Assembly (NCBI RefSeq): GCF_000272005.1
Contig: NZ_AKKU01000001.1
Location: 248,001-312,000, forward strand
DNA: 64,000 nucleotides
Direction: 5' to 3'
From: Alishewanella agri BL06
GTDB lineage: Bacteria; Pseudomonadota; Gammaproteobacteria; Enterobacterales; Alteromonadaceae
The translations under genes and the position numbers were made by a program. Numbering within the stretch: the first letter of the stretch is position 1; each line of letters begins with the position of its first letter. The notes beneath the pieces were generated by a model, which was not told where the DNA came from, did not search any database, and worked only from the letters and a program-made list of their open reading frames with translations. Positions 9,374-42,708 of the stretch are shown here, piece by piece.

Positions 9374-9460
9374 GTACAACTTTCCTGGGGCACGCCGTGA
9401 ACCCATCCCTGGGGGCTCCTCTTTTTCATCCCTGAAAAAGACGTCCCCAGAAAAGTGCAC
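9374..9460 (+). repeat. Double-hairpin intergenic repeat, copy A
   Basis: Outer arms GTACAACTTTCCTGGGG (9374-9390) and CCCCAGAAAAGTGCAC (9445-9460) are near-complementary. The core 9392-9443 starts ACGCCGTGAA and holds two hairpins: CCCA-tccc-TGGG, and an 8-bp perfect CTTTTTCA-tccc-TGAAAAAG. The same core occurs at 9557-9674 and 9775-9892 (opposite strand) and at 42612-42708, always with different hairpin stems but the same loop. It sits 45 bases after the pcaD stop and does not encode a credible protein. Confidence 0.75.
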
Positions 9461-9540
9461 TATGCATTTACCGCCTCGTTTGACCACTTTTGTAGTCCAT
9501 ATAGGATTCAACAGCGCTAAAAAACTTCTCCAGATGCTAT

Positions 9541-9680
9541 AAGTAAAACCTTTGCAGCCAGGCAGCGAGCCGATATTGCTAAGCAAAGCGTCTTTCGCAT
9601 GGATGCGAAAGAGGAGCCCCCATGGACGGGTTCACGGCGTCTTTGCGTGCAATATCGGCTGTAAGCAGCCTGGCGGTTCG
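9541..9680 (-). repeat. Double-hairpin intergenic repeat, copy B (first of a tandem pair)
   Basis: This 140-base unit matches 9759-9898 with about 19 differences, nearly all inside the hairpin stems. Outer arms 9557-9579 and 9649-9674 are inverted repeats (GCCAGGC... GCCGATATTGC against GCAATATCGGC ... GCCTGGC). Inside lies a perfect 9-bp hairpin TCTTTCGCA-tgga-TGCGAAAGA. Read on the minus strand the core is the same ACGCCGTGAACCC...GACG element as copy A. Confidence 0.8.
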
Positions 9681-9758
9681 CTGCAAATGCTCCTGCAGAA
9701 TGCGTTACAACGTTGGTCAGCTGTCTCGCAATCTCGAAAAATACCCGGTTTGTGTTGC

Positions 9759-9898
9759 AAGTAAAACCTTTGTAGCCAGGCAGCGAGCCGATATTGCTAA
9801 ACAAAGCGTGTACGGCATGGATGCCGGACAGGAGCCTACAGGGATGTATTTACGGCGTCTTTGTGTGCAATATCGGCTGCAAGCAGCCTGGCGGTTCG
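9759..9898 (-). repeat. Double-hairpin intergenic repeat, copy C (second of the tandem pair)
   Basis: Repeats 9541-9680 with a 218-base period. The outer arms (9775-9797 and 9867-9892) are almost unchanged, but the inner hairpin is TGTACGGCA-tgga-TGCCGGACA, with eight of nine pairs kept although several bases differ from copy B. The second small hairpin is TACA-ggga-TGTA. The 78 bases between the two copies are not obviously repeated. Small open frames across this region are by-products of the repeat. Confidence 0.8.
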
Positions 9899-10025
9899 AC
9901 TAAAACGAACTTATCGAAGCTGCAGATCTGCATTACCACTCAAGGATGGGTAACACCATTCTGCAATCAACAATAACCCTGCCTGTTTTTCATGCATATC
10001 CAAACCCGAATAGCAATAGTTTTCC

Positions 10026-10061
10026 ATACTTTCTCGGTATAGTGACATACTGATTCGGTGT
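10026..10061 (+). promoter_or_regulatory. Tandem LysR-type operator, BenM/CatM pattern
   Basis: ATAC-N7-GTAT at 10026-10040 and ATAC-N7-GTGT at 10047-10061, centres 21 bases (two helical turns) apart. ATAC-N7-GTAT is the consensus I recall for BenM and CatM of Acinetobacter, and paired imperfect sites of the form ATAC-N7-GTGT occur at the benA operator there. With the TATAAG at 10075-10080 the two boxes would be centred near -54 and -33, suitable for LysR-type activation of benK. No LysR gene lies in the window. Confidence 0.65.
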
Positions 10062-10074
10062 TGGATTATCACGC

Positions 10075-10080
10075 TATAAG
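10075..10080 (+). promoter_or_regulatory. Candidate -10 element for benKEF
   Basis: TATAAG lies 14 bases after the second LysR-type box and about 95 bases ahead of the benK ATG. There is no good -35 hexamer at the right distance, as expected for an activator-dependent promoter. A weaker third box ATAC-N7-GTTG lies at 10116-10130. Inferred by pattern only. Confidence 0.4.
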
Positions 10081-10175
10081 CAGCGTATCTTCTGGTTAAT
10101 GGTGAAAAATACACCATACCGATAGGGTTGCCTCGCCAGCCTATCCATCAACAGGAAGATAGAGAGAACACCGCA

Positions 10176-11561
10176 ATGCCAAACACAACAATACACCCTG
10201 CCGGCAGTAACCGGCCCGACAACAGGCTCGATGTCAACCAAACCATCGACAACGCCCGCTTTAACCGCTTTCACTGGCGGGTACTGCTACTCTGTGCACT
10301 GATTATTATCTTCGACGGCTACGATCTGGTGATATACGGTGTCGTGCTGCCGGTACTGATGCAGGAATGGCAACTTACCCCGATGCAAGCCGGTGCCCTT
10401 GGCAGCTATGCATTGTTTGGCATGATGTTCGGTGCACTGTTTTTTGGTCCGCTGGCCGACAAAATTGGCCGCAAAAAAGCCATCGCCATCTGTGTGGTGC
10501 TATTCAGCGGCTTTACCTTTTTAAACGGCTTTGCCCGTGATGTCACCGAATTTGCCATCTGCCGCTTTATCGCCGGTTTAGGTATTGGCGGCGTAATGCC
10601 CAATGTGGTGGCGTTAATGAACGAATATGCGCCGAAGAAAATCCGCAGCACCCTGGTTGCTATTATGTTTAGCGGCTATTCGGTAGGCGGCATGTTGTCG
10701 GCCGGCCTCGGCATTTGGCTTTTGCCCAACTTTGGCTGGGAAGTTATGTTCTATCTTGCCGGCATTCCGCTGTTATTACTGCCGTTGATTATGCTGTTAC
10801 TGCCTGAGTCGGTTGGCTTTTTAATTAAACGCGGCCGTCATAGCGAAGCGCGGCAAATGCTGAAAAAGGTAGAGCCGGCGTTGTCATTAACCACGCAATC
10901 CGAATTGCTTTTGGCCGACAATAAACCTGCTGGTAAACCGGTTAAAGAGCTATTTACCGACGGTCGTGCGCTGGGCACCCTGATGCTGTGGCTGGCGTTT
11001 TTCTGCTGCTTGCTGATGGTGTATGCGCTGGGTTCCTGGTTACCGAAGTTAATGGCCAATGCCGGCTATAGTCTGGGCTCCAGTTTAGCCTTCCTGCTGG
11101 TACTGAATTTTGGTGCCATCTTTGGTGCGGTCGGTGGCGGTGTACTGGGTGATAAACTAAATCTACCCAAGGTATTGGCGGTGTTTTTTGCTATTGCCGC
11201 GGTGTCTATTACCTTACTTGGCTTTAAACCACCGATGGTTGTGCTGTATTCACTGATTGCCATTGCCGGCGCCACCACCATTGGCAGTCAGATCCTGCTG
11301 TATGCCTGTGCCGCACAGTTCTATAACCTGAATATCCGTTCCACCGGTCTTGGCTGGGCGTCGGGAATTGGCCGTAACGGCGCCATAGTGGGTCCCTTGC
11401 TGGGCGGGTCTTTGCTGGCGATTAGCCTGCCATTGCAACTTAACTTTTTGGCCTTTGCCGTACCCGGCGTGATTGCATCTGTGGCGATGTCGGTGTTTGT
11501 ATTAAGCCAGCGCAGGGGCAAGGCAGCACCGGCTTTTGTCTTACAAAAACAACGGGTATAA
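10176..11561 (+). CDS. benK: Benzoate transporter, major facilitator family
   Basis: Inner-membrane proton symporter of the aromatic acid:H+ (AAHS) family, likely importing benzoate. About 12 hydrophobic segments are visible in 461 residues. Family marks are FDGYDLVIYG in the first helix (47-55) and GPLADKIGRKKA (91-102), the MFS loop signature. An in-frame TTG at 10128 would add 16 polar residues; the ATG at 10176 starts a normal AAHS N-terminus. benE begins three bases after the stop. PcaK (4-hydroxybenzoate/protocatechuate) is the closest alternative; the benE-benF company favours benzoate. Confidence 0.85.
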   Translation: MPNTTIHPAGSNRPDNRLDVNQTIDNARFNRFHWRVLLLCALIIIFDGYDLVIYGVVLPVLMQEWQLTPMQAGALGSYALFGMMFGALFFGPLADKIGRKKAIAICVVLFSGFTFLNGFARDVTEFAICRFIAGLGIGGVMPNVVALMNEYAPKKIRSTLVAIMFSGYSVGGMLSAGLGIWLLPNFGWEVMFYLAGIPLLLLPLIMLLLPESVGFLIKRGRHSEARQMLKKVEPALSLTTQSELLLADNKPAGKPVKELFTDGRALGTLMLWLAFFCCLLMVYALGSWLPKLMANAGYSLGSSLAFLLVLNFGAIFGAVGGGVLGDKLNLPKVLAVFFAIAAVSITLLGFKPPMVVLYSLIAIAGATTIGSQILLYACAAQFYNLNIRSTGLGWASGIGRNGAIVGPLLGGSLLAISLPLQLNFLAFAVPGVIASVAMSVFVLSQRRGKAAPAFVLQKQRV

Positions 11562-11564
11562 GCA

Positions 11565-12746
11565 ATGCGAACTCTACTGCGGGATAGCTCAGTATCAGCG
11601 TTGGTGGCCGGTTTAATCGCGACCTTGATTTCCTATGCCGGCCCTTTGTTGATTATTTTTCAGGTTGCCGCTGTGGCGGAGTTACCCGCAGCCCTGCTGA
11701 GCTCCTGGATCTGGGCCATCTCGATTGGCAGTGGTGTACTGGGCATTGCCCTCAGTTATTACTACAAGGTGCCGGTGATTATCGCCTGGTCGGCGCCCGG
11801 CTCAGCGCTGCTATTAACACTGTTACCGGGATTAAGTTATGCCGAAGCCGTTGGCGCTTATCTGATGACCGCGTTGTTGCTACTGCTGCTGGGGCTAACC
11901 GGTGCCTTTGACCGGCTGCTAAAGCTGTTACCGCCGGCCATTACGGCAGCTATGTTGTGTGGCATCTTACTGCAGTTTGGCATGGCGGTATTTGGGGTAT
12001 TGCCGCAAAACCCGCTACTGGTCTTGTTAATGTTACTGGCTTATCTGCTGGGGCGGCGCTTTTTACCGCGTTACGCCATCGTGCTGGTATTACTGACCGG
12101 GCTAACCATAGCATTGTGGCAGGGGCAGGTCGATACCAAGCTGATCAGCTGGCAGTTAGCCACAGTGGTGTGGACTACGCCGGTATTTAGCCTGCAGGCT
12201 TTGCTTAATGTGTCGGTGCCGCTATTGCTGGTGGCACTAAGCGGCCAGTTTATGCCGGGTATGGCAGTGCTACGACAAGCCGGTTACCCACTGGCCGCCA
12301 GCCCGCTGTTAACCCATAGTGCGCTGGGCAGTGCAGCGCTGGCGCCCTTTGGTTGTCATGGTTTAAACCTAGCCGCCATTACTGCGGCGATCTGCACTGG
12401 CAAAGATGCGCATCCGGATCCGGCCAGGCGCTATATCGCCGGTATCAGTGGTGGTGTGGCGTATCTGCTGCTGGGGATCTTTGGCGGCACTTTGGTGGCA
12501 CTGTTTAGTGCTTTTCCCAGGGCTTTTATTGCGGCCTTAGCCGGGCTGGCGTTGTTTGGTGCTATTGCCGGTGCCTTGCACTCTGCCATGGCAGAGCCCA
12601 AAACCCGCGAAGCCGCCCTGATTACCTTGCTACTTACCAGCTCGGGCGTCAGCTTATTCGGTCTGGCTGCCGCCTTTTGGGGCCTAACCGCCGGCTTACT
12701 GACCCATGTTGTACTTACTTATAAACAGAATGAACTAACACCCTAA
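11565..12746 (+). CDS. benE: Benzoate/H+ symporter BenE family
   Basis: A second inner-membrane benzoate carrier, family BenE. The 393-residue product is strongly hydrophobic throughout, with about 11-12 helices, and begins with SALVAGLIATLISYAGPLLI, typical of the family. The conserved polar stretch GCHGLNLAAITAAICTGKDAHPDP lies mid-protein. It starts three bases after benK, so the pair is co-translated. Having both BenK and BenE is known in Pseudomonas and Acinetobacter ben clusters. Confidence 0.9.
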   Translation: MRTLLRDSSVSALVAGLIATLISYAGPLLIIFQVAAVAELPAALLSSWIWAISIGSGVLGIALSYYYKVPVIIAWSAPGSALLLTLLPGLSYAEAVGAYLMTALLLLLLGLTGAFDRLLKLLPPAITAAMLCGILLQFGMAVFGVLPQNPLLVLLMLLAYLLGRRFLPRYAIVLVLLTGLTIALWQGQVDTKLISWQLATVVWTTPVFSLQALLNVSVPLLLVALSGQFMPGMAVLRQAGYPLAASPLLTHSALGSAALAPFGCHGLNLAAITAAICTGKDAHPDPARRYIAGISGGVAYLLLGIFGGTLVALFSAFPRAFIAALAGLALFGAIAGALHSAMAEPKTREAALITLLLTSSGVSLFGLAAAFWGLTAGLLTHVVLTYKQNELTP

Positions 12747-12768
12747 TACTTTTTCGACAGGATTTTTT

Positions 12769-14091
12769 ATGCGCAATGATATGTGTGGCGGCTTCGTGCG
12801 GCCTGAATTTAGCAAAACAAACCGCTCTAAAGCAGCTAAGTCTTTATCTTATATCGTTTTTAGTCTTGCAGCTGTTATTGCCAATGCCGCACAGGCTGAT
12901 GGGGAAATCACCCCACTGTGGCAGGATAGCAAGCTTGATTTACAGCTAAGAAACTACTATTTCTCGCGTGAGTTTAGCGATCTTAAAAGTCCGGGGCCAC
13001 GGCGCGCAACCGAATGGGCACAAGGCGCGGTGGCAAGCTTTAAATCCGGCTATAGTGCGACGCCGCTGCAGGTCGGTTTTGACGTGCATGCCTTCGCCGG
13101 CGTTAAGCTCGACAGCAGTCGCAGCAAAATTAACAGCGGTTTACTGGCATTGGACGACGATGGCACTGCCGCCGACAGCTACGGCCGGCTGGCCGGTACG
13201 CTAAAACTAAAGGCCGGCGGCACTGAGTTAAGAGTAGGGGAGTTGCTGCCGAATTTGCCGGTATTAACCTATAGCGATATCCGGTTATTACCGCCAACCT
13301 ATCAGGGTGCCAGTTTGCATTCTGTGCTGAGCAGCAAGCTAACATTACAGGCTGGCTATCTGGAAAGTACTAGTCTGCGAAACCGCGCCGGGCGCGATAA
13401 ATTACAGGCTATGCTGGGGCATGTGCCGCAGCGCCAGGTCAGCAGCGACAGCTTTCGCTATCTTGGCGCTGATTATCAGTTAACGGCGAACAGCCAGTGG
13501 CGGCTTTGGTATGCGCAGCTGGAAGATCTCTATCAGCAAGCCTATCTTAACTGGCAGCAGCAAATTGCACTGAATCAGCAGTTGCAGTTTAAAGCCAATC
13601 TTGGGGTGTTTTCGGCGCAGGAGCATGGCCGTGCGCTATTAAACCAGCTGGATAACCAGGCCTTTTACGCGCTGTTTTCGCTAAAGCAGGGCGCACATAC
13701 CGGCTATATGGGTTATCAGCAAATGCGCGGCGACAGCGCCTTCCCTCGGGTATTTGCCAATGTCAGTATTCTGGGTAACGAAGTACCAACTTTTGAATTT
13801 GCCTCGGCCGGCGAAAAATCCTGGCAACTGCGTTACGACACCGACTTTAGCCACTTTGGCATACCGGGTTTAAGCAGCACCCTGCGCTATATTAAAAGTC
13901 ATGGCGCCCGGGTGGGAACGGTAACTGATGGCGAGGCCTTTGAACGCGATCTCGATCTGGCTTACAGCGTGCAGCAAGGCGCATTAAAAGGCTTAAGCTT
14001 GCGGCTACGCAATGTCACGGCCCGCGCCAATTACCGCACCGATATCGACGAAAACCGCATTATTGTGCAGTACAACCTGACGTTTAACTAA
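12769..14091 (+). CDS. benF: OprD-family outer-membrane porin, benzoate-specific type
   Basis: Outer-membrane channel expected to admit benzoate. The 440-residue product has an N-terminal signal (hydrophobic YIVFSLAAVIANAAQA after a basic stretch, cleavage probably after AQA near 45) followed by an aromatic-rich beta-barrel with OprD features (LDLQLRNYYFSREF, LTYSDIRLLPPTYQGASL). It ends YNLTFN, so the last residue is Asn rather than the common Phe. The signal region is longer than usual; ATG 12769 has AGGA ahead, but an internal start cannot be excluded. The benF name rests on position after benK-benE. Confidence 0.82.
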   Translation: MRNDMCGGFVRPEFSKTNRSKAAKSLSYIVFSLAAVIANAAQADGEITPLWQDSKLDLQLRNYYFSREFSDLKSPGPRRATEWAQGAVASFKSGYSATPLQVGFDVHAFAGVKLDSSRSKINSGLLALDDDGTAADSYGRLAGTLKLKAGGTELRVGELLPNLPVLTYSDIRLLPPTYQGASLHSVLSSKLTLQAGYLESTSLRNRAGRDKLQAMLGHVPQRQVSSDSFRYLGADYQLTANSQWRLWYAQLEDLYQQAYLNWQQQIALNQQLQFKANLGVFSAQEHGRALLNQLDNQAFYALFSLKQGAHTGYMGYQQMRGDSAFPRVFANVSILGNEVPTFEFASAGEKSWQLRYDTDFSHFGIPGLSSTLRYIKSHGARVGTVTDGEAFERDLDLAYSVQQGALKGLSLRLRNVTARANYRTDIDENRIIVQYNLTFN

Positions 14092-14131
14092 GGCATAGTG
14101 ATACCCGCAAAGCGTGCGCCCGCCAACTAAC

Positions 14132-14205
14132 AAAGTTATCCACAGCACTCCGGTACCGGCCGGAGGTCTGAGCTCTTACCGGTACCGGAGACGTGTGGAT
14201 AAGTT
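14132..14205. repeat. Long imperfect inverted repeat between benF and the NRAMP-like gene
   Basis: Arms of about 27 bases, reading AAAGTTATCCACAG then CTCCGGTACCGG on the left, and CCGGTACCGGAG then ACGTGTGGATAAGTT on the right, pair with few mismatches. A smaller dyad CTCCGG-N6-CCGGAG is nested in the left arm. The genes on both sides converge here, so it may act as a two-way terminator, though no T-tract is present. The 11-mer TACCGGAGACG (14183-14193) recurs in the hairpin at 22727-22757. Confidence 0.6.
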
Positions 14206-15429
14206 AGCTTAGGGCGAGGTAGAGCGTGCGGCTGCTTAACAGCAGGGTGATAGCCAGCACGCTAAAGCCCAGCAGATTTTGCCGGCGGTTATTGCGATAG
14301 CGCCCCAGCGCTTTAGCATTGACCGCGACTAACAGACAGAGCGTAATAACCGGTAATAAAATGCCATTGGCAACCTGGGCAAACCAGATCACGCTTAAAG
14401 GTTTTAGGCCCAGACTGGATACCGTAATACCTATTAGCATTACCAGCAGCCAGGTCAGGCGAAACTGCTGCGGATTCAGTGCCAATAAACCCTGCAACGC
14501 ATAAGCCGCCGCCAGTGGCGCCGTGAGTGCCGATGATAAACCGGCCGCCAATAAGCCCAGCGCCATCAGATAGCGGGCACTGGCACCAAACAGCGGTTCC
14601 AGCGACAGTGCCAGCTCACCGGCGTTACTAAGCGTCAGCCCTTTGCCAAAAAATGCGGTAGCCGCCGTCGAGACTATTGCCAAAGTAATTAGGCCACCCA
14701 GCGGAATAGCAGTACGCAGATCGGCGGCAGACTCCGCCAGCGCCTGGGCTTTGTCGGTAGTTTGCCATTTACGGGCCGCACTGGCGGCATGTAAAAACAG
14801 CGAGTAGGGCACAACGGTAGTACCAACCAGCGCAATCACCGTTAACGTTGCGCCTTCCGGCAGTTGCGGTACGAAAAGTCCGCGCAGCATGGCCGACCAT
14901 GCCGGTTGGGTTAGCAGCATGCTGCTGATAAAGGCCAGGCTCATTAATAGCACCAGGCCAATTAACCAGCGCTCAATTAACTGATAGCGGCCTTGCCATA
15001 GGATCGCCGCAGCGATGGCGCCTAATAGCAAAGCCCAGGGGTTCAGCTTGCTGTGCTCTGTCAGCGCAAGTCGCCAGGCGGTATCCCCCCAAATGGCTTC
15101 AGCACCCAGGCTGGCACCAGTCAGATTACCGCCCTGATAGGCACTGTTACCCAGCACAATAGCGGCAATAACCAGCAGATAAAGTAAGGCTCGCAGCAGC
15201 GGATGCTGCAGTTGCTGGCGCAAATTCTCACCCAGCCCCGACCGGTTACGATGCCTAATCGTGCCGCCATCTCCTGCAAAATCAGCGTTGCTAACACCGA
15301 AAACAGCAAGGCCCACAGCAAAGCATAACCAAAGTTAGCACCGGCCAGTGATGCAGTAACTACGGTACCAGGCCCAATAAAAGCAGCGGTAACCAGGGTG
15401 GCAGGGCCAAAGCGAAAGACGGATGACAT
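14204..15429 (-). pseudogene. NRAMP-family-like metal transporter, interrupted by a single-base frameshift
   Basis: Two frames on the minus strand join into one NRAMP-like protein of about 408 residues. The first (15429 to about 15240) gives MSSVFRFGPATLVTAAFIGP through ARLGIVTGRG; after the C-run at 15236-15239 the family sequence continues one frame away as LGENLRQQL and on to the stop. One extra base in that run would restore the frame, so this is either a real mutation or a sequencing error. The first helix reads GPGT where classical MntH/NRAMP has the metal-binding DPGN, and helix 6 reads VVPYS instead of MPHN, so even the intact protein may not be a Mn/Fe carrier. Substrate unknown. Confidence 0.8.
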
Positions 15430-15682
15430 AGTTGTTGCTAAGCAGATAGTAGTTAACTCAAGACTTTACTGAAGCACTGGCAGCAGATCCAGTTAATTCG
15501 CTTTTCGTTGCCTGATAGCAGGTTTCCTGTTGGTTATTAAAATTATTTTTCACCTTAACTTTATGATTAATATCGATAATAAAAAAATATTCGATTTTTC
15601 TAAATTTTTTTTGGCCGAATTTATAAATCGTCACGTAACAACGGAAGCGTAAAGAAACGCAGACAAAACGGAGAGTGTTGTC

Positions 15683-17650
15683 ATGACTAATGTAAGTCAG
15701 CTGTTGTTAAACCTAAGTGTAAAGAAAAAATTGTTAAGTGGCTTTGCCGTGGTACTGGCCATCTTATTAACCATCAGTGCCCTGAGTTTTCAGGCTTTGG
15801 GCGCTTTAAGTGAACGCTTTACGCTACTGAACAACGTGAAAAGCATTAGTTTGCTGATCTCCGATGCCCGGCAGCAGGAAAAAAACTTTATCCTGCGCGG
15901 TGAGGTGCAGTATATCGACACGGCCATTGCCAATGTTGAGCAAAGTCTGCGTTTGTCTGACGCCGCTATCGCCGGCTTTAGCACGCCAGAAAGCATTACT
16001 CTGATGCAAACCCTGCAGCAACAGGCCCGCAGTTATCAGCAGGAACTGAAAAATTATCAACGACTTGAGCTGGAAAACCGGGCTCGTCAGCAACAGATGG
16101 AAGCCCAGGCGTACGCTGCCATCAGAAGCTTTAGCCAGTTGGAGCAAGACTTCCGGGCCAAGGCTACTGCTGCGATCGCGCGTCAGGGTAATGCCGAAAC
16201 TATCGCTGCGCTAAGTTATTCGCAGCTGGCTGCTGATGCCAACCGTGCCTTGCTGGAGGCGCGACGCTTAGAGCGTAACTTTATTATCAGCAAGGATAAT
16301 GCGGTTTATCAGGCACTGTTGGCACAGTTGGCAACGCTGGAGCAAATTATTCCGCAGTTACAGCAAAGTAGTAATGAGGCAATGGTGCAGCAACTGTTGG
16401 CCGAGGTGAATCAGCAGCTGGCGGCCTACCGCTCTGAATTTAGCAGTTTTCGCCAAATCAGTGCCCAGCTGGATAACTCTGAGCAGCAATTAACCGAGCA
16501 GGCTCGTGCTGTGGTATCTGATGCTGATTTATCGTTAGCGCGACAATTAGAGCGCCTGGCCGTGGAAGAGCAACAGTTAAAAACGGTATTACTGGTGTCC
16601 AGTGCGCTGGCGCTGCTCTTCGGCATCGCTGCCGCCCTGATCATCACCCGTCTGATTGTAAAACCGCTACAGCAAGTGGTGGCCGTGGCAGATAAAATTG
16701 CTGACGGCGATTTAACTGCCGATTTGGTCCCCGATCGTAGCGATGAACTGGGACAGTTGATGCAGTCTATGCAGCGCATGACGTTAAGTTTACGGCAGCT
16801 GATTTTGCGCCTCTCGGCAGGGATAACGCAATTGGCCAGTTCAACTGAAGAAATGGCGGTGATTTCGCAGCAAACCAGCACCGGTGTGGCACAACAAAAA
16901 ATGGAAACCATGCAGGTTGCCACCGCAATGAATGAAATGACCGCCACCGTGCAGGATGTGGCCCGCAGTGCCGAGGAAGCGTCAACTGCAGCTACTCACT
17001 CAGCCGAGCAGGCTGAATTTAGCAACCGCATTTTAGATCGCACTATGAGCGGCATTAAAAATCTGGCGCAGGAGGTCAGTGATACGGCGGTATCCATTGC
17101 CGAATTGCAGCAAGAAGCCGCCAGTATCGGCGAAATTGTTAGCGTGATTTCTGGTATTACCGAGCAAACCAACTTATTGGCACTGAATGCGGCCATTGAG
17201 GCGGCGCGGGCAGGTGAAGCCGGGCGCGGGTTTTCTGTTGTGGCCGATGAAGTACGGCAACTGGCCAACCGGGCACAGCAGTCTACTACCAAAATCAGTG
17301 AAGTGATTAAGCGTTTACAGCAAAAAACCGAACAGGCAGTACAGGCGATGCAGGCCAATGCCGGCATGGCGAATGAGGTATTTAAATCGACGGATGATGC
17401 CACTGAGGCTATCGAACTGATTATTAGTAATATCAAGAATATTCAAGCGATGAATCAGCAAATTGCTGCTGCAGCCCTGCAGCAAAGTACGGTAGCAGAA
17501 GAGATTAACCGCAGTTTGACCAATATTCAGGTAGTAACAGAGCAGTCTTCGGTCGCGATTGAAGAAACCGCCAAAACCAGCAGTGCGCTCAGTCAGCTTG
17601 GACTGGAACAACAGCAACTGGCCAATCAGTTCCGGTTATCTGCTGCCTGA
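15683..17650 (+). CDS. Methyl-accepting chemotaxis protein with large periplasmic helical sensor
   Basis: Transmembrane chemoreceptor. Layout of the 655 residues: TM1 about 18-40, an all-helical periplasmic domain of about 255 residues (41-297), TM2 about 300-325, a HAMP domain (IVKPLQQVVAVADKIADGDL), then the cytoplasmic hairpin with tip [32 protein letters not shown]. The sensor size and helical, Gln-rich make-up fit the HBM (helical bimodular) class, whose studied members bind organic acids; that is inference. A GGAG precedes the ATG. The 253-base gap upstream is very AT-rich and probably holds its promoter. No C-terminal CheR pentapeptide is seen. Confidence 0.92.
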   Translation: MTNVSQLLLNLSVKKKLLSGFAVVLAILLTISALSFQALGALSERFTLLNNVKSISLLISDARQQEKNFILRGEVQYIDTAIANVEQSLRLSDAAIAGFSTPESITLMQTLQQQARSYQQELKNYQRLELENRARQQQMEAQAYAAIRSFSQLEQDFRAKATAAIARQGNAETIAALSYSQLAADANRALLEARRLERNFIISKDNAVYQALLAQLATLEQIIPQLQQSSNEAMVQQLLAEVNQQLAAYRSEFSSFRQISAQLDNSEQQLTEQARAVVSDADLSLARQLERLAVEEQQLKTVLLVSSALALLFGIAAALIITRLIVKPLQQVVAVADKIADGDLTADLVPDRSDELGQLMQSMQRMTLSLRQLILRLSAGITQLASSTEEMAVISQQTSTGVAQQKMETMQVATAMNEMTATVQDVARSAEEASTAATHSAEQAEFSNRILDRTMSGIKNLAQEVSDTAVSIAELQQEAASIGEIVSVISGITEQTNLLALNAAIEAARAGEAGRGFSVVADEVRQLANRAQQSTTKISEVIKRLQQKTEQAVQAMQANAGMANEVFKSTDDATEAIELIISNIKNIQAMNQQIAAAALQQSTVAEEINRSLTNIQVVTEQSSVAIEETAKTSSALSQLGLEQQQLANQFRLSAA

Positions 17651-35566: not shown

Positions 35567-35613
35567 TTTGTCACTTGTCAGACCAGAAATGCGTTTGTGA
35601 CTTGACAGACCAG
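35567..35613 (+). repeat. Two 20-base direct repeats ahead of the TetR-family gene
   Basis: TTTGTCACTTGTCAGACCAG (35567-35586) and TTTGTGACTTGACAGACCAG (35594-35613) match at 18 of 20 positions, with start points 27 bases apart. The second contains the TTGACA -35 hexamer. The repeat may mark a duplicated promoter or two operator sites for a factor reading CTTGWCAGACCAG. Confidence 0.55.
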
Positions 35614-35656: not shown

Positions 35657-35672
35657 AACGGCGTAGTGAAGA

Positions 35673-36332: not shown

Positions 36333-36350
36333 TGCTGGAAGGAAGCTGAT

Positions 36351-38666
36351 ATGGTGTATTTGTTAATAATAGTGGCAATACTGGTGGTGCTGTTTGGTGT
36401 AACCTCCATTCGTCGTAGTCTGATTACCAAGCCGGTGTTTGGTATTTTCAAGAAAATTTTACCGCCCTTGTCAGATACTGAGCGTGAAGCGATGGAAGCC
36501 GGTGATGTCTGGTGGGATGGCGAGCTATTTAAAGGCAAGCCAGATTGGCAAAAACTGCATGCCATTCCGAAGGCCGAGTTGTCAGCCGACGAGCAAGCCT
36601 TTATGGATAATCAGGTGGAAACCCTGTTGACTATGCTGGACGATTATAAAATCGTGCAGGAAGACCGCGATCTGCCAAAGGCGGTATGGGATTACATTAA
36701 GCGCGAAGGTTTCTTTGCGATGATTATTCCTAAAGCCTATGGTGGCCGCGAGTTTTCGGCCATTGCCAACTCAACCATCGTTTCTCGCATTGCTACCCGC
36801 AGTTTAACTGCCGCAGTCACCATTATGGTGCCGAACTCTTTAGGCCCGGGCGAGCTACTGATGCACTATGGTACTCAGGAGCAAAAAGACCGCTGGTTAC
36901 CAACGCTGGCAAATGGTACCGATGTGCCGTGCTTTGCCTTAACCGGCCCGGAAGCAGGCTCTGATGCCGGCGGTATTCCGGATACTGGTGTAGTGTGTAA
37001 AGGCCAGTTTGAAGGTAAAGAAGTACTGGGTATTCGTCTGAACTGGGATAAGCGTTATATCACGCTGGCACCGGTTGCGACGGTACTGGGGTTAGCCTTT
37101 AAGCTGTATGACCCGGAAAAACTATTAGGTGATAAGGAAGAGCTGGGCATTACCTGTGCTCTGATCCCAACCAGCCACCCTGGTGTGCAGATTGGGGATC
37201 GCCATTTCCCAATGAATATGGCCTTTATGAACGGTACTACTTACGGCAAAGATGTGTTTATTCCGTTGGATTGGATTATCGGTGGTCCCTCTTACGCTGG
37301 CCGCGGCTGGCGGATGCTGGTGGAATGTTTATCAGCCGGCCGGGGGATTTCACTCCCAGCGCTGGCGACCGCAACCGGCCACTTAGCGGCGCGGATGACT
37401 GGCGCTTATGGTTATGTACGCCAGCAATTCGGCATGTCGATTGGCAAGTTTGAAGGTGTACAGGAAGGCTTAGCGCGCATTGGTGGTTTAACTTACACCT
37501 TAGAAGCGATGCGGGTGATGACCGCCGGTGCTATCGATTTAAAACTGAGCCCGTCAGTGGTTACGGCTATTGCCAAATACCATATGACAGAGATGTCGCG
37601 TACCTTATTAAACGATGCCTTTGATATTCATGCCGGTAAGGCCATTCAATGTGGTCCGATGAACTATCTGGCTCACGGCTATATGGGCGTCCCGATCTCG
37701 ATTACGGTAGAAGGGGCTAATATCCTGACCCGTAACCTGATGATTTTCGGCCAGGGTGCGACCCGTTGCCATCCTTATGTATTGGCAGAGCTGGAAGCTG
37801 CAGCCAATCCAAATGCCGAAGAAGGTCTGGCGCAGTTCGATAAGCTGTTAATGGCGCATATCGGCTTTGCGGTAGGGAATACCTTCTCTGCCCTGTGGCA
37901 GGGTTTAACAGCCGGTGCCTTCAACAGCGCCCCGGTATCGGGCGAAACGGCCCGCTACTACAAGCAATTAAGCCGCATGAGCCGTGCGTTGGCATTAAGT
38001 GCTGATATTTCGATGTTGATGCTGGGCGGTGATTTAAAACGCAAAGAGATGCTGTCAGCCCGCTTAGGTGACGTGTTAAGTCAGTTGTATATTGCTTCCT
38101 GTGTGCTGAAGTTCTTTGAAGACAATGGTCGTCAGCAGGCCGATCTGCCGTTCGTGCATTACAGTGTGCAGCGCTCGCTGTTTGAAATTGGTAAAGCCTT
38201 TGATGGTTTCTTTGCTAACTTCCCGAACCGGGTTGTGGCACGGACTATCCGTACACTGGTATTCCCGTTTGGTATTGGCTACAAGATGCCGTCAGACGCG
38301 GTGGCCCAGCAAATTTGTGAAGCCTTATCTAAGCCAAATACGCTGCGCGATCGTCTGACCCATCTGTGCTATATGGGTAAAGATGAAGACGATGCTACGG
38401 GCTTAATGGAAAATGCTTTTGTCGCGATGTATAACGCTCAGCCATTGCTGAAGAAAATTGCCCAGGCGCAAAAAGCCGGTCAATTACCACGCAAACAGCC
38501 GCTGCTGGATAGTATTAACCAGGCGTTAGCGGCCAGTATTCTGACGGAACAGGAAGCGGACAGCCTGCGCAAGATGAACCAGCTGCGCTTTAAAGCCATC
38601 AGTGTCGATAGCTTTAAACCCGGCGTGCTGGAAGGCATGAGTGTCGGTAAACGTGATGCGGCGTAA
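36351..38666 (+). CDS. fadE: Acyl-CoA dehydrogenase FadE
   Basis: First step of fatty-acid beta-oxidation: FAD-dependent oxidation of acyl-CoA. 771 residues, in the long FadE class rather than the 380-residue class. It has an N-terminal membrane helix (YLLIIVAILVVLFGVTSI), the acyl-CoA dehydrogenase core with CFALTGPEAGSDAGG (flavin/substrate loop), and the middle segment EGVQEGLARIGGLTYTLEAMR. The C-terminal extension is typical of the family. It is transcribed with psrA and followed by a terminator. Confidence 0.95.
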   Translation: MVYLLIIVAILVVLFGVTSIRRSLITKPVFGIFKKILPPLSDTEREAMEAGDVWWDGELFKGKPDWQKLHAIPKAELSADEQAFMDNQVETLLTMLDDYKIVQEDRDLPKAVWDYIKREGFFAMIIPKAYGGREFSAIANSTIVSRIATRSLTAAVTIMVPNSLGPGELLMHYGTQEQKDRWLPTLANGTDVPCFALTGPEAGSDAGGIPDTGVVCKGQFEGKEVLGIRLNWDKRYITLAPVATVLGLAFKLYDPEKLLGDKEELGITCALIPTSHPGVQIGDRHFPMNMAFMNGTTYGKDVFIPLDWIIGGPSYAGRGWRMLVECLSAGRGISLPALATATGHLAARMTGAYGYVRQQFGMSIGKFEGVQEGLARIGGLTYTLEAMRVMTAGAIDLKLSPSVVTAIAKYHMTEMSRTLLNDAFDIHAGKAIQCGPMNYLAHGYMGVPISITVEGANILTRNLMIFGQGATRCHPYVLAELEAAANPNAEEGLAQFDKLLMAHIGFAVGNTFSALWQGLTAGAFNSAPVSGETARYYKQLSRMSRALALSADISMLMLGGDLKRKEMLSARLGDVLSQLYIASCVLKFFEDNGRQQADLPFVHYSVQRSLFEIGKAFDGFFANFPNRVVARTIRTLVFPFGIGYKMPSDAVAQQICEALSKPNTLRDRLTHLCYMGKDEDDATGLMENAFVAMYNAQPLLKKIAQAQKAGQLPRKQPLLDSINQALAASILTEQEADSLRKMNQLRFKAISVDSFKPGVLEGMSVGKRDAA

Positions 38667-38682
38667 TTAATGCAGCAACAGG

Positions 38683-38712
38683 AAAACCGGAGCCAGGCGC
38701 TCCGGTTTTTTT
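38683..38712 (+). terminator. Intrinsic terminator of fadE
   Basis: AAAACCGGAGC (38683-38693) pairs with GCTCCGGTTTT (38699-38709) over a five-base loop and ends in T to 38712. It lies 16 bases after the stop. Confidence 0.88.
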
Positions 38713-38793
38713 ATCGGTTCTCGATTGGTAAAGTCCGGAATAGCGTTAGAATAGGCCCGACCACGCATAACAGCAATAATAAGAGGTAACAAT

Positions 38794-39300
38794 ATGGCGC
38801 ACAATATGGCACAAAGTACAATTCGTCTGGCCACGGTAGCCGATGTGCCACTGATATTGAAATTTATTCAGGGATTGGCGGAATATGAAAAGCTGGCGCA
38901 TGAGGTAGTAGCAACCGAACAAAAGTTAACCGAAACCTTATTTTCAGCACAACCTGCCGCTGAGGTGGTGATTGCTGAATATCAGGGACAGCCTGCAGGT
39001 TTTGCGTTGTTTTTCCACAATTACTCGACCTTTCTGGCCAAGCCGGGTTTGTATCTGGAAGATCTGTTTGTGTTACCCGAATACCGTGGCAAAGGTTTAG
39101 GTAAATTACTGCTGACCTATTTGGCGAAACTCGCCGTAGACAGAGGTTGTGGCCGTTTCGAATGGTCGGTACTGGATTGGAACCAACCCGCCATCGATTT
39201 CTATCAGGCTCAGGGCGCGGTCTTAATGCATGATTGGCGGATCAATCGGGTAACGGGTGATAAGTTAACGGCACTGGCCAGCCAATATCAGCCTGTCTAA
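38794..39300 (+). CDS. GNAT-family N-acetyltransferase, SSAT-like
   Basis: Acetyl-CoA-dependent acetyltransferase of 168 residues. The acetyl-CoA loop is YRGKGLGKLL, preceded by YLEDLFVLPEYR. FEWSVLDWNQPAIDFYQAQGAV is the typical second half of the spermidine/spermine or thialysine acetyltransferase-like group. AAGAGGTAAC precedes the first ATG (38794); a second ATG at 38806 is also possible. The natural substrate is unknown, with polyamine or amino-acid amines likely by family. Confidence 0.88.
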   Translation: MAHNMAQSTIRLATVADVPLILKFIQGLAEYEKLAHEVVATEQKLTETLFSAQPAAEVVIAEYQGQPAGFALFFHNYSTFLAKPGLYLEDLFVLPEYRGKGLGKLLLTYLAKLAVDRGCGRFEWSVLDWNQPAIDFYQAQGAVLMHDWRINRVTGDKLTALASQYQPV

Positions 39301-39328
39301 AGGCTGCAGTAGTATATTGGAGCAGTAG

Positions 39329-39520
39329 ATGACGAAGGATCAGAAAAAGCAAAATACCAAGCCGGTAGTACCGGTAGAGCCGCAGCCAGCAAAAGTCGCG
39401 CCCAAAATGGTAAAGCGGCGGCAAAAAGGTGACTTTTGGATTAACCTCAGCATCGCCTTGTTTATCAGCGTTTGTCTGCTGATTCTTGGTTTTGAATTGT
39501 TAATTAAGATTGCCGGCTAG
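39329..39520 (+). CDS. Small single-helix membrane protein, unrecognised
   Basis: A 63-residue protein: a basic, Pro-rich head (TKDQKKQNTKPVVPVEPQP ... KMVKRRQKGDF) and one C-terminal membrane helix (WINLSIALFISVCLLILGFELLI). It has GGAG six bases ahead of the ATG, starts 28 bases after the acetyltransferase gene and is followed by a terminator, so it looks like a real gene. I do not recognise a family. The charge pattern predicts the head stays in the cytoplasm. Confidence 0.65.
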   Translation: MTKDQKKQNTKPVVPVEPQPAKVAPKMVKRRQKGDFWINLSIALFISVCLLILGFELLIKIAG

Positions 39521-39574
39521 AAAGCATTATCAGTGACTGTTTGACCGCAAGCAGGGCTGTATCAGCACTAAAAC

Positions 39575-39602
39575 AATAAGGGAGGCAATCGCCTCCCTTA
39601 TT
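39575..39602. terminator. Bidirectional terminator between convergent genes
   Basis: AATAAGGGAGGC (39575-39586), loop AATC, GCCTCCCTTATT (39591-39602): a perfect 12-bp stem between the small membrane protein gene and the convergent leucine dehydrogenase gene. T-rich ends are short. Confidence 0.82.
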
Positions 39603-39638
39603 TGCTCCGCACATCGATAGCGCAGTGTCGCTAGAACC

Positions 39639-40682
39639 TTAGAGCGGGCCGCGGGCAATAATTTCCTGTGCCATCTGGTCGGCGACCGTGCTGGTGGGTT
39701 TATCTTCGGCATCGGCACGTTCAAAAATCCGCAGCAGCGTATCGTAAATTTGCATTACTTTAGCGGTAGACTCCGCAGCATTATAACCCTGTGGACGCAT
39801 TTCAAAGGCCACGTTGATAATACCGCCGCCGTTAATAACGTAGTCCGGTGCATACAGAATGCCTGAATCACGTAGCTTCTGTCCATGCTCTGGCCGTTTT
39901 AACTGGTTGTTGGCACAGCCGGCAACCACTTTCGCTTTTAACTGCGGAATGGTGTCATCATTTATAGTGGCGCCCAGCGCACAAGGGGCGTAGATATCAG
40001 CTGCTACACCGTAGATATCATTCAGGCCGACGGCAGTGGCGCCAAATTGCGCTACGGCACGGTTTACCGCATCCTGGTTAATATCAGTAACAATCAGTTT
40101 CGCGCCTTCTTTGTGCAGGTGCTCACACAGATAGAAACCAACGCTGCCTAAGCCCTGCACGGCAACCGTTTTACCGGCTAAATCGGCAGAACCAAATTGA
40201 TGTTTGGCCGCGGCTTTAATGCCCTGATAGGTACCCAGCGCTGTAAACGGACCCGGATTACCGCTTTTACCTTCTAAACCGGCAACAAAAGGCGTTTCCT
40301 GATGCACCTGCATAATGTCATGGGTAGTGATATTGACGTCTTCCGCACTGTAGTAGCTGCCACCTAAGCGATGTACCATACGGCCAAAGGCTTTAAACAG
40401 TGCTTCCGATTTGATGGTCTTGGCATTACCGATAATCACTGACTTGCCGCCACCCAGGGGTAAACCGGCCATGGCGTTTTTATACGTCATACCGCGTGAT
40501 AAACGCAGTACGTCCACCAGTGCATCTTCGTCTGATGCATAATCCCACAACCGGCAGCCACCGACAGCTGGCCCTAAACGGGTGCTATGAACGGCGATAA
40601 TGGCTTTTAAACCGGTTTCCTGATCACTGCAGAACACGACTTGCTCGTGCTGATCAAACTCTGGGTGATTAAATACGGCCAC
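39639..40682 (-). CDS. ldh: Leucine (branched-chain amino acid) dehydrogenase
   Basis: NAD-dependent oxidative deamination of leucine, isoleucine or valine. The 347-residue product belongs to the Glu/Leu/Phe/Val dehydrogenase family: substrate loop GPAVGGCRLWDY, catalytic Lys in GLPLGGGKSVI, YYSAEDVNITTHDI, Rossmann motif VQGLGSVG, and NGGGIINVA. The start is a GTG at 40682 with GGGAG six bases ahead; upstream codons are open but non-conserved. A dyad at 40721-40740 fits a LiuR operator, matching a role in branched-chain amino-acid breakdown. Valine dehydrogenase cannot be excluded. Confidence 0.9.
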   Translation of the reverse strand: MAVFNHPEFDQHEQVVFCSDQETGLKAIIAVHSTRLGPAVGGCRLWDYASDEDALVDVLRLSRGMTYKNAMAGLPLGGGKSVIIGNAKTIKSEALFKAFGRMVHRLGGSYYSAEDVNITTHDIMQVHQETPFVAGLEGKSGNPGPFTALGTYQGIKAAAKHQFGSADLAGKTVAVQGLGSVGFYLCEHLHKEGAKLIVTDINQDAVNRAVAQFGATAVGLNDIYGVAADIYAPCALGATINDDTIPQLKAKVVAGCANNQLKRPEHGQKLRDSGILYAPDYVINGGGIINVAFEMRPQGYNAAESTAKVMQIYDTLLRIFERADAEDKPTSTVADQMAQEIIARGPL

Positions 40683-40720
40683 AACGGACTCCCTTGCAAG
40701 AATAGCTATTACAGCTGGAT

Positions 40721-40740
40721 AGTTTACGTTTACGTTAACT
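40721..40740 (-). promoter_or_regulatory. LiuR-type operator ahead of leucine dehydrogenase
   Basis: The dyad AGTTTACGT-TT-ACGTTAACT has halves that pair at eight of nine positions. It lies 38 bases upstream of the GTG start. I recall LiuR, the MerR-family regulator of branched-chain amino-acid degradation, having sites built on TTTACGT/ACGTAAA. No liuR gene is in the window, so the assignment is inference. Confidence 0.55.
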
Positions 40741-40912
40741 GCGACTTTCGTCGTAATGGCGCGGAATGTACCATTTTGGCTAACTGAAAGCCAGCCCTGC
40801 ATACAACTTGAACCTGGTCTGGCCAGTGGCGGCGTTTTGCTAGTCAGTAAAGCTTGATTGTCGGGAACAGCTCACATAAAGTAGCGGCATTGATAACACA
40901 GGAAGTCATTTT

Positions 40913-41341
40913 ATGAGTGAGCAGTTAACTCAGCAAACAAACGAATTAACCGACGAGCAGCGTGCTGCCTGGGTAAGAACACAGTTTCAAAAAGCCAACG
41001 AATATCTGGCGACCAAAGGCATTATTCCAGACAATGTCGCCGTAAGTGAGAGCCGTTACCTCCCGCCACTCGTAGCGATTTGGAAATTAAATACCCGTGA
41101 TGCTAAGTCATTCTGGGTGATTAGCGGTGATTTGCCCACTGATCATATGCCGCTCAGTGCCGCTCCGAATGCCCGTGAAGCGATGCGATCTTTTGCCTTA
41201 CACTGGCAATTAAAAGCCGAGCAAATTGCCCAGGCCGGCTTTAGTGACCAAACGCAGGTCGACTTTGCTAACTTATTGGTTAAGCGTGCGGAAGGCTTGT
41301 ATGACTTGTTCGATAACGAACAGTTATGGCAGGGGCAGTAA
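40913..41341 (+). CDS. DUF4826-like protein
   Basis: Soluble protein of 142 residues with the segment VAVSESRYLPPLVAIWKLNT and FWVISGDLPTDHMPLSAAPNAREAMRSFALHW, which I associate with DUF4826 from memory. AGGAAG precedes the ATG. It is divergent from leucine dehydrogenase (230 bases between) and followed by a strong terminator, hence a single-gene unit. Function unknown. Confidence 0.75.
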   Translation: MSEQLTQQTNELTDEQRAAWVRTQFQKANEYLATKGIIPDNVAVSESRYLPPLVAIWKLNTRDAKSFWVISGDLPTDHMPLSAAPNAREAMRSFALHWQLKAEQIAQAGFSDQTQVDFANLLVKRAEGLYDLFDNEQLWQGQ

Positions 41342-41362
41342 CTTAACTGTCAAGTTTTGTTG

Positions 41363-41398
41363 CCATAAAAAAAGCCGCTACTGCGGCTTTTTTTATGG
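41363..41398. terminator. Strong bidirectional terminator
   Basis: A perfect 16-bp stem: CCATAAAAAAAGCCGC (41363-41378), loop TACT, GCGGCTTTTTTTATGG (41383-41398). It serves the DUF4826-like gene and the convergent roxA. Its shape is nearly the same as the rplT terminator. Confidence 0.92.
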
Positions 41399-41411
41399 CT
41401 GGCGTCAGGCC

Positions 41412-42566
41412 TTATTCTTCAAAATACCACAGACCCTGATTAATCAGATCGGTGATTAACAGCAGTCGCTCTTCGCGCGCGGTAAAATGTAAACATTGTT
41501 GCTGGTCAATACGTTTACTGTCGCACAATAACTGCGTGGTCGTCAGCTCTTCTGCCGGCAGTACAATGTTATTGCCGTTAATAAACAGTTGGATATCGCT
41601 GTTGTCCGTGGCCTGATAATAACAGCAGCGCAGGCCGCCAAGGCGCGCCAGTACAGAGCCTTCTTCCAGATATTCCGCAATTTCTTCTGCCTGATAATGC
41701 GGGTCTGGCTCTTGCTGATCCAGCTCATGTTTGGCCTGGGTAATATACTGGCCAAACCATAGCGGTAGTGTGTCGCGGTCACTGACCAGTTGCACCAAAA
41801 GCTGCTGCACCTGATCCAGATCCTGCTCACTAATCGCACCGATATTAGCAGTCAGGTTGCGATCAGGATCGCTAAAGCGTTTCCCGCTGATATCATTATC
41901 CAATAGATAATCGGCTAAACCGGTCAGTAAGTCTTTTTGTGCCGGCGCCCGGAAACCGACTGAGTAGTTCAGACTGTTCTCCAGTGAAATCCCTTCGTGC
42001 GGGCAGCCAGGCGGAATATATAGAATATCACCCGGCTCCATAATCACATCAATACAGGCGGTAAAGGGCGTGACTTGAAGCAGGCGCGGGTGCGGGCAGA
42101 ATTGCTTTAGCGACGCATCTGGCATGCCAACCCGCCAGTGTCTTTTACCTTCGCCCTGGATAATAAACACATCATATTGATCCAGATGCGGACCAACACC
42201 GCCACCCGGCGTGGAAAAGCTGACCATCAGATCATCAATCCGCCAGTTTGGAATAAAGCGAAATGGCTCAATCAACTCCGCCGCAGGTGGATGCCAGTGG
42301 TCAACCGCCTGCACCAGGATAGTCCAGTCCTTGTCGCCATAGCGGTTAAAGTCTTCAAAGGGGCCGGTTTCCAGCTGCCAGTTACCGTCGCGACATTCGA
42401 CCAACCGTGATTCGACGTCGTCTTCCAACGCCAGACCTGCCAGCTCATCCGCTGACAGCGGATCCTGAAAGTTCTTAAAGCCTTGTTTAATCAACAGCGG
42501 CTGCTTTTGCCAGTACTGCTGCATAAAATCGGCCAGGCTTAATTCACCCAGATTTAACTGATACAT
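41412..42566 (-). CDS. roxA: 50S ribosomal protein L16 arginine hydroxylase (JmjC)
   Basis: Fe(II)/2-oxoglutarate oxygenase that hydroxylates an arginine of ribosomal protein L16 (E. coli YcfD/RoxA). The 384-residue product has the JmjC core GPHLDQYDVFIIQGEGKRHW (His and Asp ligands), a second ligand region GCPHEGISLENSLNYSVGF, and the C-terminal winged-helix region. Start ATG 42566 (MYQLNLGELSLADF) matches the family; the longer frame to 42611 does not. It is downstream of purB on the same strand, with a repeat element between. Confidence 0.9.
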   Translation of the reverse strand: MYQLNLGELSLADFMQQYWQKQPLLIKQGFKNFQDPLSADELAGLALEDDVESRLVECRDGNWQLETGPFEDFNRYGDKDWTILVQAVDHWHPPAAELIEPFRFIPNWRIDDLMVSFSTPGGGVGPHLDQYDVFIIQGEGKRHWRVGMPDASLKQFCPHPRLLQVTPFTACIDVIMEPGDILYIPPGCPHEGISLENSLNYSVGFRAPAQKDLLTGLADYLLDNDISGKRFSDPDRNLTANIGAISEQDLDQVQQLLVQLVSDRDTLPLWFGQYITQAKHELDQQEPDPHYQAEEIAEYLEEGSVLARLGGLRCCYYQATDNSDIQLFINGNNIVLPAEELTTTQLLCDSKRIDQQQCLHFTAREERLLLITDLINQGLWYFEE

Positions 42567-42611
42567 TTTAGGATCCCAAGTAAAGCAGCTGAATTTACGA
42601 TTACAGAGCAA

Positions 42612-42708
42612 GAACCAGATTGCTTACGCCAAGACGCCGTAAATACATCCCTGTAGGCTTCATTCAGGCATCCATGCCTTCAAGACTTGGCTTAAAGCAA
42701 TCCGGTTC
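42612..42708 (+). repeat. Double-hairpin intergenic repeat, copy D
   Basis: Outer arms 42612-42633 and 42686-42708 pair at most positions (GAACC-GATTGCTT... GCCAAG against CTTGGC...AAGCAATC-GGTTC). The core starts ACGCCGTAAA and contains TACA-tccc-TGTA and AGGCA-tcca-TGCCT. Same architecture as the copies at 9.4-9.9 kb, but the outer arms are unrelated in sequence. It lies between purB (3' end) and roxA (5' end). Confidence 0.75.

Follow-up and report, generated by a model that had tools for sequence, protein, structure and literature searches.

The closest described relatives of the element reported here are known from Yersinia under two sets of names. As an intergenic repeat that has been proposed to act in transcript stability or termination, YPAL (also called RU-2) is mobile, targets dyads, makes target duplications of 3-26 bp and is carried in upstream transcripts, according to the accessible text of PMC2229807. 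As a small RNA (sRNA), Ysr224 is listed as temperature-responsive and is among the 20 most prevalent bacterial sRNAs tabulated in the available part of PMC9029176, and that of PMC12112432 describes several copies with differing expression in Yersinia ruckeri. We analyzed a dispersed intergenic repeat that is present in four copies in a 64,000-nt stretch of the Alishewanella agri BL06 genome (contig NZ_AKKU01000001.1, positions 248,001 to 312,000), which we refer to as the window.

The repeat belongs to a widespread family whose base pairing is under selection, which folds on one particular strand, which carries paired CANGGANG motifs at near-fixed spacing, and whose copies have moved as passengers in one genome. 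We propose, with a probability of about one half, that the element is a mobile RNA with paired docking sites for the regulator CsrA/RsmA, presented on the strand on which both hairpin loops contain GGA (the GGA strand; its complement is the TCC strand). We infer the binding from the sequence of the loops.

The window copies and their Yersinia relatives

All four copies described in the initial annotation were found and their common core was confirmed: the core pattern GACGCCGTRAANNCNTCCNTGNNGGCT, with up to 3 mismatches, matched four times in the window against 0.00 expected, and had no further match there. Each copy contains, in order, an outer inverted repeat, the conserved stretch ACGCCGTRAA, hairpin 1, a short GGCT linker and hairpin 2, for a length of 97-131 bp. 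Both hairpins and the inverted repeats that enclose them agree with the original description, except that the apex of hairpin 1 in the 9.56 kb copy is GTCCA and not ATCCM. The features are listed below in window positions.

9350..9480, GGA strand minus, core reads plus: copy 1, with outer arms, hairpin 2 and hairpin 1 (from other-genome matches and folds)
9404..9411, minus: CANGGANG site in hairpin 1 of copy 1 (CAGGGATG), 23 nt from the hairpin 2 site
9427..9434, minus: CANGGANG site in hairpin 2 of copy 1 (CAGGGATG)
9557..9674, GGA strand plus: copy 2 (from core and folds; weak Ysr224 match on the minus strand)
9598..9605, plus: CANGGANG site in hairpin 2 of copy 2 (CATGGATG)
9621..9628, plus: CANGGANG site in hairpin 1 of copy 2 (CATGGACG)
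9775..9892, GGA strand plus: copy 3 (from core and folds; Ysr224 match on the minus strand)
9816..9823, plus: CANGGANG site in hairpin 2 of copy 3 (CATGGATG)
9839..9846, plus: CANGGANG site in hairpin 1 of copy 3 (CAGGGATG)
42612..42708, GGA strand minus: copy 4, between two minus-strand open reading frames (ORFs) (from core, folds and relatives' loci)
42646..42653, minus: CANGGANG site in hairpin 1 of copy 4 (CAGGGATG)
42669..42676, minus: CANGGANG site in hairpin 2 of copy 4 (CATGGATG)

The limits of copies 1 and 4 were taken from other-genome matches, among the matches listed, which make copy 1 slightly longer than first noted; in copies 2 and 3 the core direction is the minus strand. When the copies were folded as DNA, none of 200 dinucleotide shuffles equaled any of the four (z -3.5 to -6.6). 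Beside copy 4, the end of the neighboring ORF is repeated in inverted form (42720-42743, AGTTACTGGATTAGTCCAGTAACT); genome G029 (stretch L172) lacks the inverted half of this ORF-end repeat.

The initial annotation knew of no named family for these sequences, and here it has to be revised. Once reverse-complemented, the 168-nt sequence given for RU-2 (YPAL) in Table 1b of PMC2759123 contains the same core, both hairpins and a flanking stem. With the Rfam model of Ysr224 (RF02770), a copy from a viral contig scored 133.9 bits, one from Yersinia similis 126.5 bits and one from Sodalis 82.9 bits, all above the model's gathering score of 70. The model also matched window copy 3 at 29.4 bits (E 1.2e-4) and, weakly, copy 2 at 20.8 bits (E 0.036), in both cases on the minus strand. 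Because these scores fall below gathering, we regard the window copies as relatives within a wider family and not as members of Ysr224; at gathering score Rfam placed no family on the window copies, and its sole match in the whole window was a tRNA. The core sequence and the two-hairpin fold are shared with YPAL/RU-2 and Ysr224, and judged by these features YPAL/Ysr224 is the described Yersinia member of a gammaproteobacterial repeat family that also holds the window copies.

Pairing, folded strand and Csr-type sites

We assembled a non-redundant set of 122 copies from other species (L043-L164), which includes viral contigs. In 100 of them the left and right arms agree with each other at no fewer than 9 of 12 positions; when each left arm was compared with the right arm of a different copy, 6 of 122 reached this level. 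The two variable base pairs of hairpin 1 are both paired in 117. When 45 diverse copies were aligned without gaps, 92.4% of the 1845 cells were paired, as against 34-42% when the partners are slid by 1-3 columns and 58.3% in shuffles. For the same 45 copies the covariation score is 0.842 (0.12-0.17 slid, 0.20 shuffled) and the number of doubly changed cells is 624 (137-178 slid, 186 shuffled). The long stem formed by the arms has a median of 28 bp. In related copies pairing is kept while sequence changes; copies alike in sequence without pairing, which the initial annotation had named as a refutation, were not what we saw. Selection on structure, as the initial annotation had argued, is strongly supported by the fraction of paired cells, the covariation, the match of each copy's own arms and the G-U asymmetry described below.

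A further dependence was seen between core position 5, which is C or T, and the base that follows hairpin 1, which is G or C, with the combinations C-G in 93 copies, T-C in 27, C-C in 2 and T-G in 0. Pairing alone does not explain this coupling, which perhaps reflects a contact.

A G-T mismatch on one strand of a palindrome is an A-C mismatch on the other, and the classes of mismatch therefore reveal which folded strand has been selected. With the 22 copies whose arms fall below 9/12 set aside, 100 copies remain. Of the mismatches in their arms, 99 are of the G-U type when read on the GGA strand, 18 belong to the mirror class and 106 to neither. Counted per copy, the G-U excess lies on the GGA strand in 59 copies versus 8 (p = 1e-10), and arms swapped to a wrong partner gave 213 versus 188. 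A pooled set, in which 197 of 237 copies were used, yielded 224 GGA-strand G-U, 47 mirror and 220 other mismatches. By set, within which copies are not independent, the ratio of GGA-strand to mirror mismatches is 37:3 in G279, 15:1 in G339, 21:5 in G113, 6:0 in G119, 4:1 in G109 and 17:6 in the own genus. The hairpin stems hold too few mismatches for a strand call (3:3, 5:2). The RNA fold is more stable on the GGA strand in 50 of 58 cases. Compared with the family consensus, the G279 copies have 14 GGA-strand G-U-class mismatches versus 5 mirror ones; as 11 of the 14 are changes from A-T to A-C, most did not arise by cytosine deamination, although recent events are few.

These counts point to the strand opposite the core direction of the initial annotation as the selected one. 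That annotation had offered RNA or extruded single-stranded DNA (ssDNA) as the folded form; that a single strand folds is borne out, RNA is the simpler reading of it, and ssDNA of that same strand is compatible with the wobble test. Counting G-U against A-C mismatches should be a cheap way to find the folded strand of other palindromic repeats.

On the GGA strand both loops read CA-N-GGA-N-G. The motif CANGGANG, which we take to be the RsmE consensus, is present in both hairpins of all four window copies, each time 23 nt apart. The window contains 13 such sites in total, 8 of them in the elements as four 23-nt pairs, and no other pair of sites spaced by 18-35 nt was found in the window. Across the 122 copies the loop of hairpin 2, which our search pattern left unconstrained, is TCC (GGA on the other strand) in 88 of 92 readable cases; 30 copies were dropped for weak arms or a long interior, and one of the four other loops (L129) is a mis-chosen fold. 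Variation in this loop falls mostly at the two N positions. Of the 122 copies, 85 carry a second CANGGANG on the GGA strand, and in 66 of these the spacing is exactly 23 nt; a second site was present in 10 copies when the opposite strand was read and in 5 when the interiors were shuffled. The TA form of hairpin 1 has the sequence UACAGGGAUGUA or UACAUGGAUGUA. In RNA folds of the window copies, some GGA triplets lie outside a clean tetraloop.

CsrA is a dimer able to hold two hairpins. Its ligands obtained by systematic evolution of ligands by exponential enrichment (SELEX) have the consensus RUACARGGAUGU according to the accessible text of PMC7652899; all of them contain ACA and GGA, and in 51 of 55 the GGA is placed in a hairpin loop. 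We suggest that the GGA strand, most simply as RNA, would form a long stem that ends in two hairpins, each with an apical CANGGANG and mostly 23 nt apart, and that a CsrA/RsmA dimer would bind both loops. Transcripts that run through a copy would gain a CsrA docking site and with it an altered stability, and the copies summed over a genome may titrate CsrA. In favor of this reading, csrA was found in 33 of the 34 genomes with the element versus 280 of the 335 others (p = 0.04, uncorrected for kinship and completeness), and the Yersinia relatives of the element are transcribed. No Rfam Csr family matched the whole window at gathering score or the interval 9300-9950 in a second search.

Spread and mobility of the family

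The initial annotation had let its case depend on further copies outside the window, and these are plentiful. The A. agri genome (3.49 Mb in 30 contigs) contains 9 exact cores and 25 matches with up to 3 mismatches, of which we judged 19 to be real and 6 to be chance by reading them; the reversed pattern, at the same tolerance, gave 8. The copies are dispersed over several contigs and include four facing pairs 242-311 bp apart. In an even draw of 369 genomes from the class Gammaproteobacteria, 34 have at least one exact core, with a maximum of 129 copies in one genome, and the reversed pattern had 0 matches in the same 369. A 26-base pattern found at least 119 stretches in named genome contigs; of the 80 listed, 79 have gammaproteobacterial names and 1 is labelled Proteobacteria only, and they include Stenotrophomonas, Xanthomonas, Microbulbifer, Marinobacter, Shewanella, Alcanivorax, Yersinia, Sodalis and others. 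Within the own genus (31 genomes), many further matches among those listed cover the element and nothing else of the queries.

A Yersinia-type copy, used as query, had matches in 5 of 5426 Escherichia coli genomes. In both of the records opened, which are from wastewater E. coli, one a plasmid and one a chromosome, the copy stands behind the same alcohol dehydrogenase gene (L165 4001-4170 and L166 2501-2670) and has ~75% identity to the Yersinia type. The same query matched 17 plasmid records (H6-H22) from Enterobacteriaceae and Pantoea, and no phage record.

In genome G279, the 40 matches listed are 88-100% identical over ~196 bp, start with CAGCAATTCCC and end with its inverse as a terminal inverted repeat (TIR). 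Target duplications of 8-10 bp flank 23 of the 25 loci in which both ends could be recognized (5 of 30 loci were dropped for an unrecognizable end), compared with 0 of 600 mixed flanks. With TIRs and a fixed target duplication, the G279 units are miniature inverted-repeat transposable elements (MITEs); the transposase that moves this carrier MITE was not found. By eye, the copies of G181 have a different TIR and ~9-bp duplications, and those of G399 and G407 a third type of end, TTACTAAGG. Since these ends differ, the same core rides in units with unrelated ends. We conclude that copies spread at least partly, in one genome, as passengers of MITEs moved by the transposases of other elements. 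The copy types of the window itself show no clear target duplication by eye.

The arms of the element were followed in G339, in a comparison of 13 G339 copies and 1 G399 copy (one of them, L384, is miscut and was kept in the averages). The 52-nt core is 97% identical over these 14 copies. Arm positions 13-29 mostly differ between copies as much as chance would have it (21-44% identity in the left arm, with 73% at position 18), yet they are 71-93% paired within a copy. We lean to the view that G339-type arms belong to old copies that drift with compensation and are occasionally flipped by recombination between the arms. At a site shared by G339 and G399 (L315, L411), the right arms are homologous, differing at 8 of 30 positions, and the core shows no difference as far as it can be read; compensation is not visible there because the other arm in G399 is masked. 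Three G399 sites lack the element, with too great a turnover to judge whether an inverted duplication of the target flank was the source of the arms, and no clean empty site was found among further G339/G399 shared flanks, where anchors are missing at several loci. We also considered insertion into ready-made long palindromes and doubt it: 400 kb of G339 contain 23 inverted repeats, few of them unique and coreless by eye.

The initial annotation pointed to a REP-type (Y1/RAYT) enzyme as a possible mobilizer, and our results do not support this. Y1_Tnp genes are present in the A. agri genome (G000) and in 4 of 4 copy-rich genomes, and the core is absent from all 13 of the Y1 loci (2 from the own genome and 11 from the four others). 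The own RAYT-like Y1 transposase gene (L042 1219-1866) is framed, by eye, by a different inverted repeat, CCGGTACCGGAGACATGTGGATAA. To our knowledge Y1 enzymes make no target duplications, whereas the G279 units have 9-bp ones. A GACG that follows hairpin 2 recalls the CGTC-REPs, but it is partly paired in the consensus, and we regard this as resemblance only. We considered attC sites of integrons because of the Y-shaped fold and because an IntI-like gene is present at C12:91096 (275.9 bits, under the family cut-off). This idea was not supported: the surroundings of that gene show other palindromes, and at L035 1474-2760 the gene is followed by a tandem series of GTCTCCGGTA...TACCGGAGAC palindromes, which are similar to the RAYT repeat and unlike the element.

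Several other structures were seen near or within copies. A second repeat type, often near the first, occurs on contig C10 of the own genome (L021 1275-1402 and L022 1614-1741; ends GGTGCAACGCCC...AAGGGCTTAACG), also in L020 and L024, and partially in L025 and L026; its sequence is different, and it has two hairpins, CACATCCCTGTG and GCAGCATCCATGCTGC, with GGA loops on the other strand. Extra hairpins stand between hairpin 1 and hairpin 2 in L014, L020 and L031 of the own genome and in L045, and two of the three extra hairpins of L020 have the loop TCC (AAACTTCATCCTGAAGTTT, AAATTCGTTCCCGACGAATTT). In G339, an extra hairpin of ~40 nt lies inside the hairpin 1 loop at L391 10919 and L403 12031, with intact arms by eye, and the stretches L387-L406 contain long palindromes of other repeat families, such as CACCGCAAAGACGCAAAGG, CGTCATTGCGAGCGCAGCG and TGTAGGAGCGGCC.

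Alternative explanations and known systems

A number of observations weigh against a CsrA/RsmA docking RNA and should be set out together. The chief difficulty is orientation: no bias relative to genes was found; between same-strand neighbors, 20 copies would be transcribed as the TCC strand and 14 as the GGA strand, and there were 16 convergent and 9 divergent arrangements (a simple ORF caller was used; 19 copies were dropped as intragenic and others for having no near neighbors). G279, counted apart, gave 1 on the TCC strand and 4 on the GGA strand. Either the effect is independent of the neighbor's transcript, as it would be with pervasive or antisense transcription or with titration, or the strand counts at a different step, for example in an ssDNA intermediate. 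In addition, Rfam writes Ysr224 on the TCC strand, opposite the GGA strand. The G-U asymmetry does not distinguish RNA from ssDNA of the same strand, and it is weak in G181 (6:4) and in G399/G407 (8:6). Counting the pairs in which both sides have changed gives 35 of 41, a value that does not stand above the shuffled controls, since it is reached by 37 of 500. At L315 and L411, the shared site of two related genomes, the core is inverted. As for the sites, the ACA of the SELEX ligands is missing from 63 of 122 hairpin 1s because their variable pairs are CC/GG, and among 31 long-interior copies, mostly from G279, GGA predominates in the hairpin loops when these are read on the core strand: 26 loops have GGA, 8 TCC, 1 both and 11 neither. 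The association with csrA is weak because most genomes of the class have this gene (313 of 369), and in G099, an 88% complete genome, the element is present and no csrA was found.

The main rival has the GGA strand fold as ssDNA, so that a mobilizing enzyme (HUH, integrase-like or other) recognizes both hairpins much as IntI does attC, and structure is selected at each mobilization. Strand-specific pairing, unbiased gene orientation, the outer arms that differ between G339 copies while remaining paired, and the variable-length target duplications of YPAL in the accessible text of PMC2229807 would all fit. We consider it unlikely: no such enzyme was found beside the element, given the coreless Y1 loci and the other palindromes at the IntI-like gene, the G279 copies sit inside a MITE with its own 9-bp duplications, and the CANGGANG pattern with its spacing is left without a reason. 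Slightly less probable to us is a hairpin that acts at gene ends in transcript stability or termination, as proposed for YPAL, with no role for CsrA. It has in its favor that relatives have terminator-like hairpins between the same genes: at the copy 4 site a GGCGCT...AGCGCC hairpin is present in 13 of 30 loci of relatives, and where the gap could be read (17 of the 30) it lies between the same two genes, so that some genomes of the genus have it there instead of the element; in G007 and G022 one follows the gene that precedes copy 1. The content of these intergenic stretches thus varies from relative to relative, and no clean empty site was found. The placement of YPAL at dyads and within upstream transcripts, in the text of PMC2229807 available to us, agrees as well. 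Against it, a plain stability hairpin would have no need of two GGA loops whose spacing is nearly fixed, or of a folded strand that does not follow the neighboring genes.

The long near-perfect arms, bursts of copies and patchy distribution are also what one might see in a functionless selfish palindrome, whose pairing would be maintained not by selection but by template-switch correction of quasi-palindromes. This we hold to be quite improbable, as such correction should be strand-neutral, and neither the excess of 99 over 18 G-U mismatches, the 15:1 ratio in G339 nor the invariant loops would be predicted. A CsrA/RsmA docking RNA stays our preferred explanation. If it is correct, transposition is a source of CsrA/RsmA sites and ties the load of mobile repeats to a global post-transcriptional regulator, and the rewiring of the regulon can be tested in strains with and without copies. 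Extended to the whole class, and offered more tentatively, the family may consist of mobile sponge modules: selfish repeats with a ready CsrA/RsmA dimer site, carried in unrelated MITEs, each with private compensating stems, that titrate the regulator by copy number or wire genes into its regulon.

Set against known systems, the element resembles YPAL, which is likewise intergenic, mobile and targeted to dyads, but which is reported from Yersinia and Erwinia carotovora and has other arms and another length; the accounts of YPAL, in the portions accessible to us, mention no Csr site, strand bias or wider spread. The 107-nt Ysr224 model takes in the left arm, hairpin 1 and hairpin 2 of the element and ends within the right arm, and it is written on the TCC strand. 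Like CsrB/RsmZ-type sponges and mRNA Csr sites, the element has GGA in its loops, a CANGGANG-like code and more than one site per RNA. The CsrB/RsmZ-type RNAs are sRNA genes with their own promoter and terminator, as described for Pf2/Pf3 in the literature available to us, whereas the element is a dispersed repeat with two sites per copy, in which no conserved promoter was seen. The GTAG/CGTC REPs are also short intergenic palindromes, often in inverted pairs, but the element consensus has no GTAG tag and the core is missing beside the 13 Y1 genes. Integron attC sites form arrays beside intI with conserved R boxes, while the copies here are dispersed over contigs. MITEs resemble the element in the TIR, 9-bp duplications and near-identical copies of G279, and by eye in G181; the difference is that one core is found within MITE-like units whose ends are unrelated and also, in G339, within palindromes that share no visible end.

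The accessible parts of PMC2229807, PMC2759123, PMC2267715, PMC5193452, PMC2847712, PMC7652899, PMC12889724, PMC11882849, PMC9029176, PMC12112432 and PMC3733652 do not link such repeats to CsrA. As far as the literature searched shows, the class-wide spread, the folded strand and the paired Csr-type sites are new beyond the known YPAL/Ysr224 and MITE-like palindromes. They join the YPAL repeats, the sRNA Ysr224 and the anonymous palindromes of marine and soil gammaproteobacteria, which stand apart in the portions of that literature we consulted, into one family.

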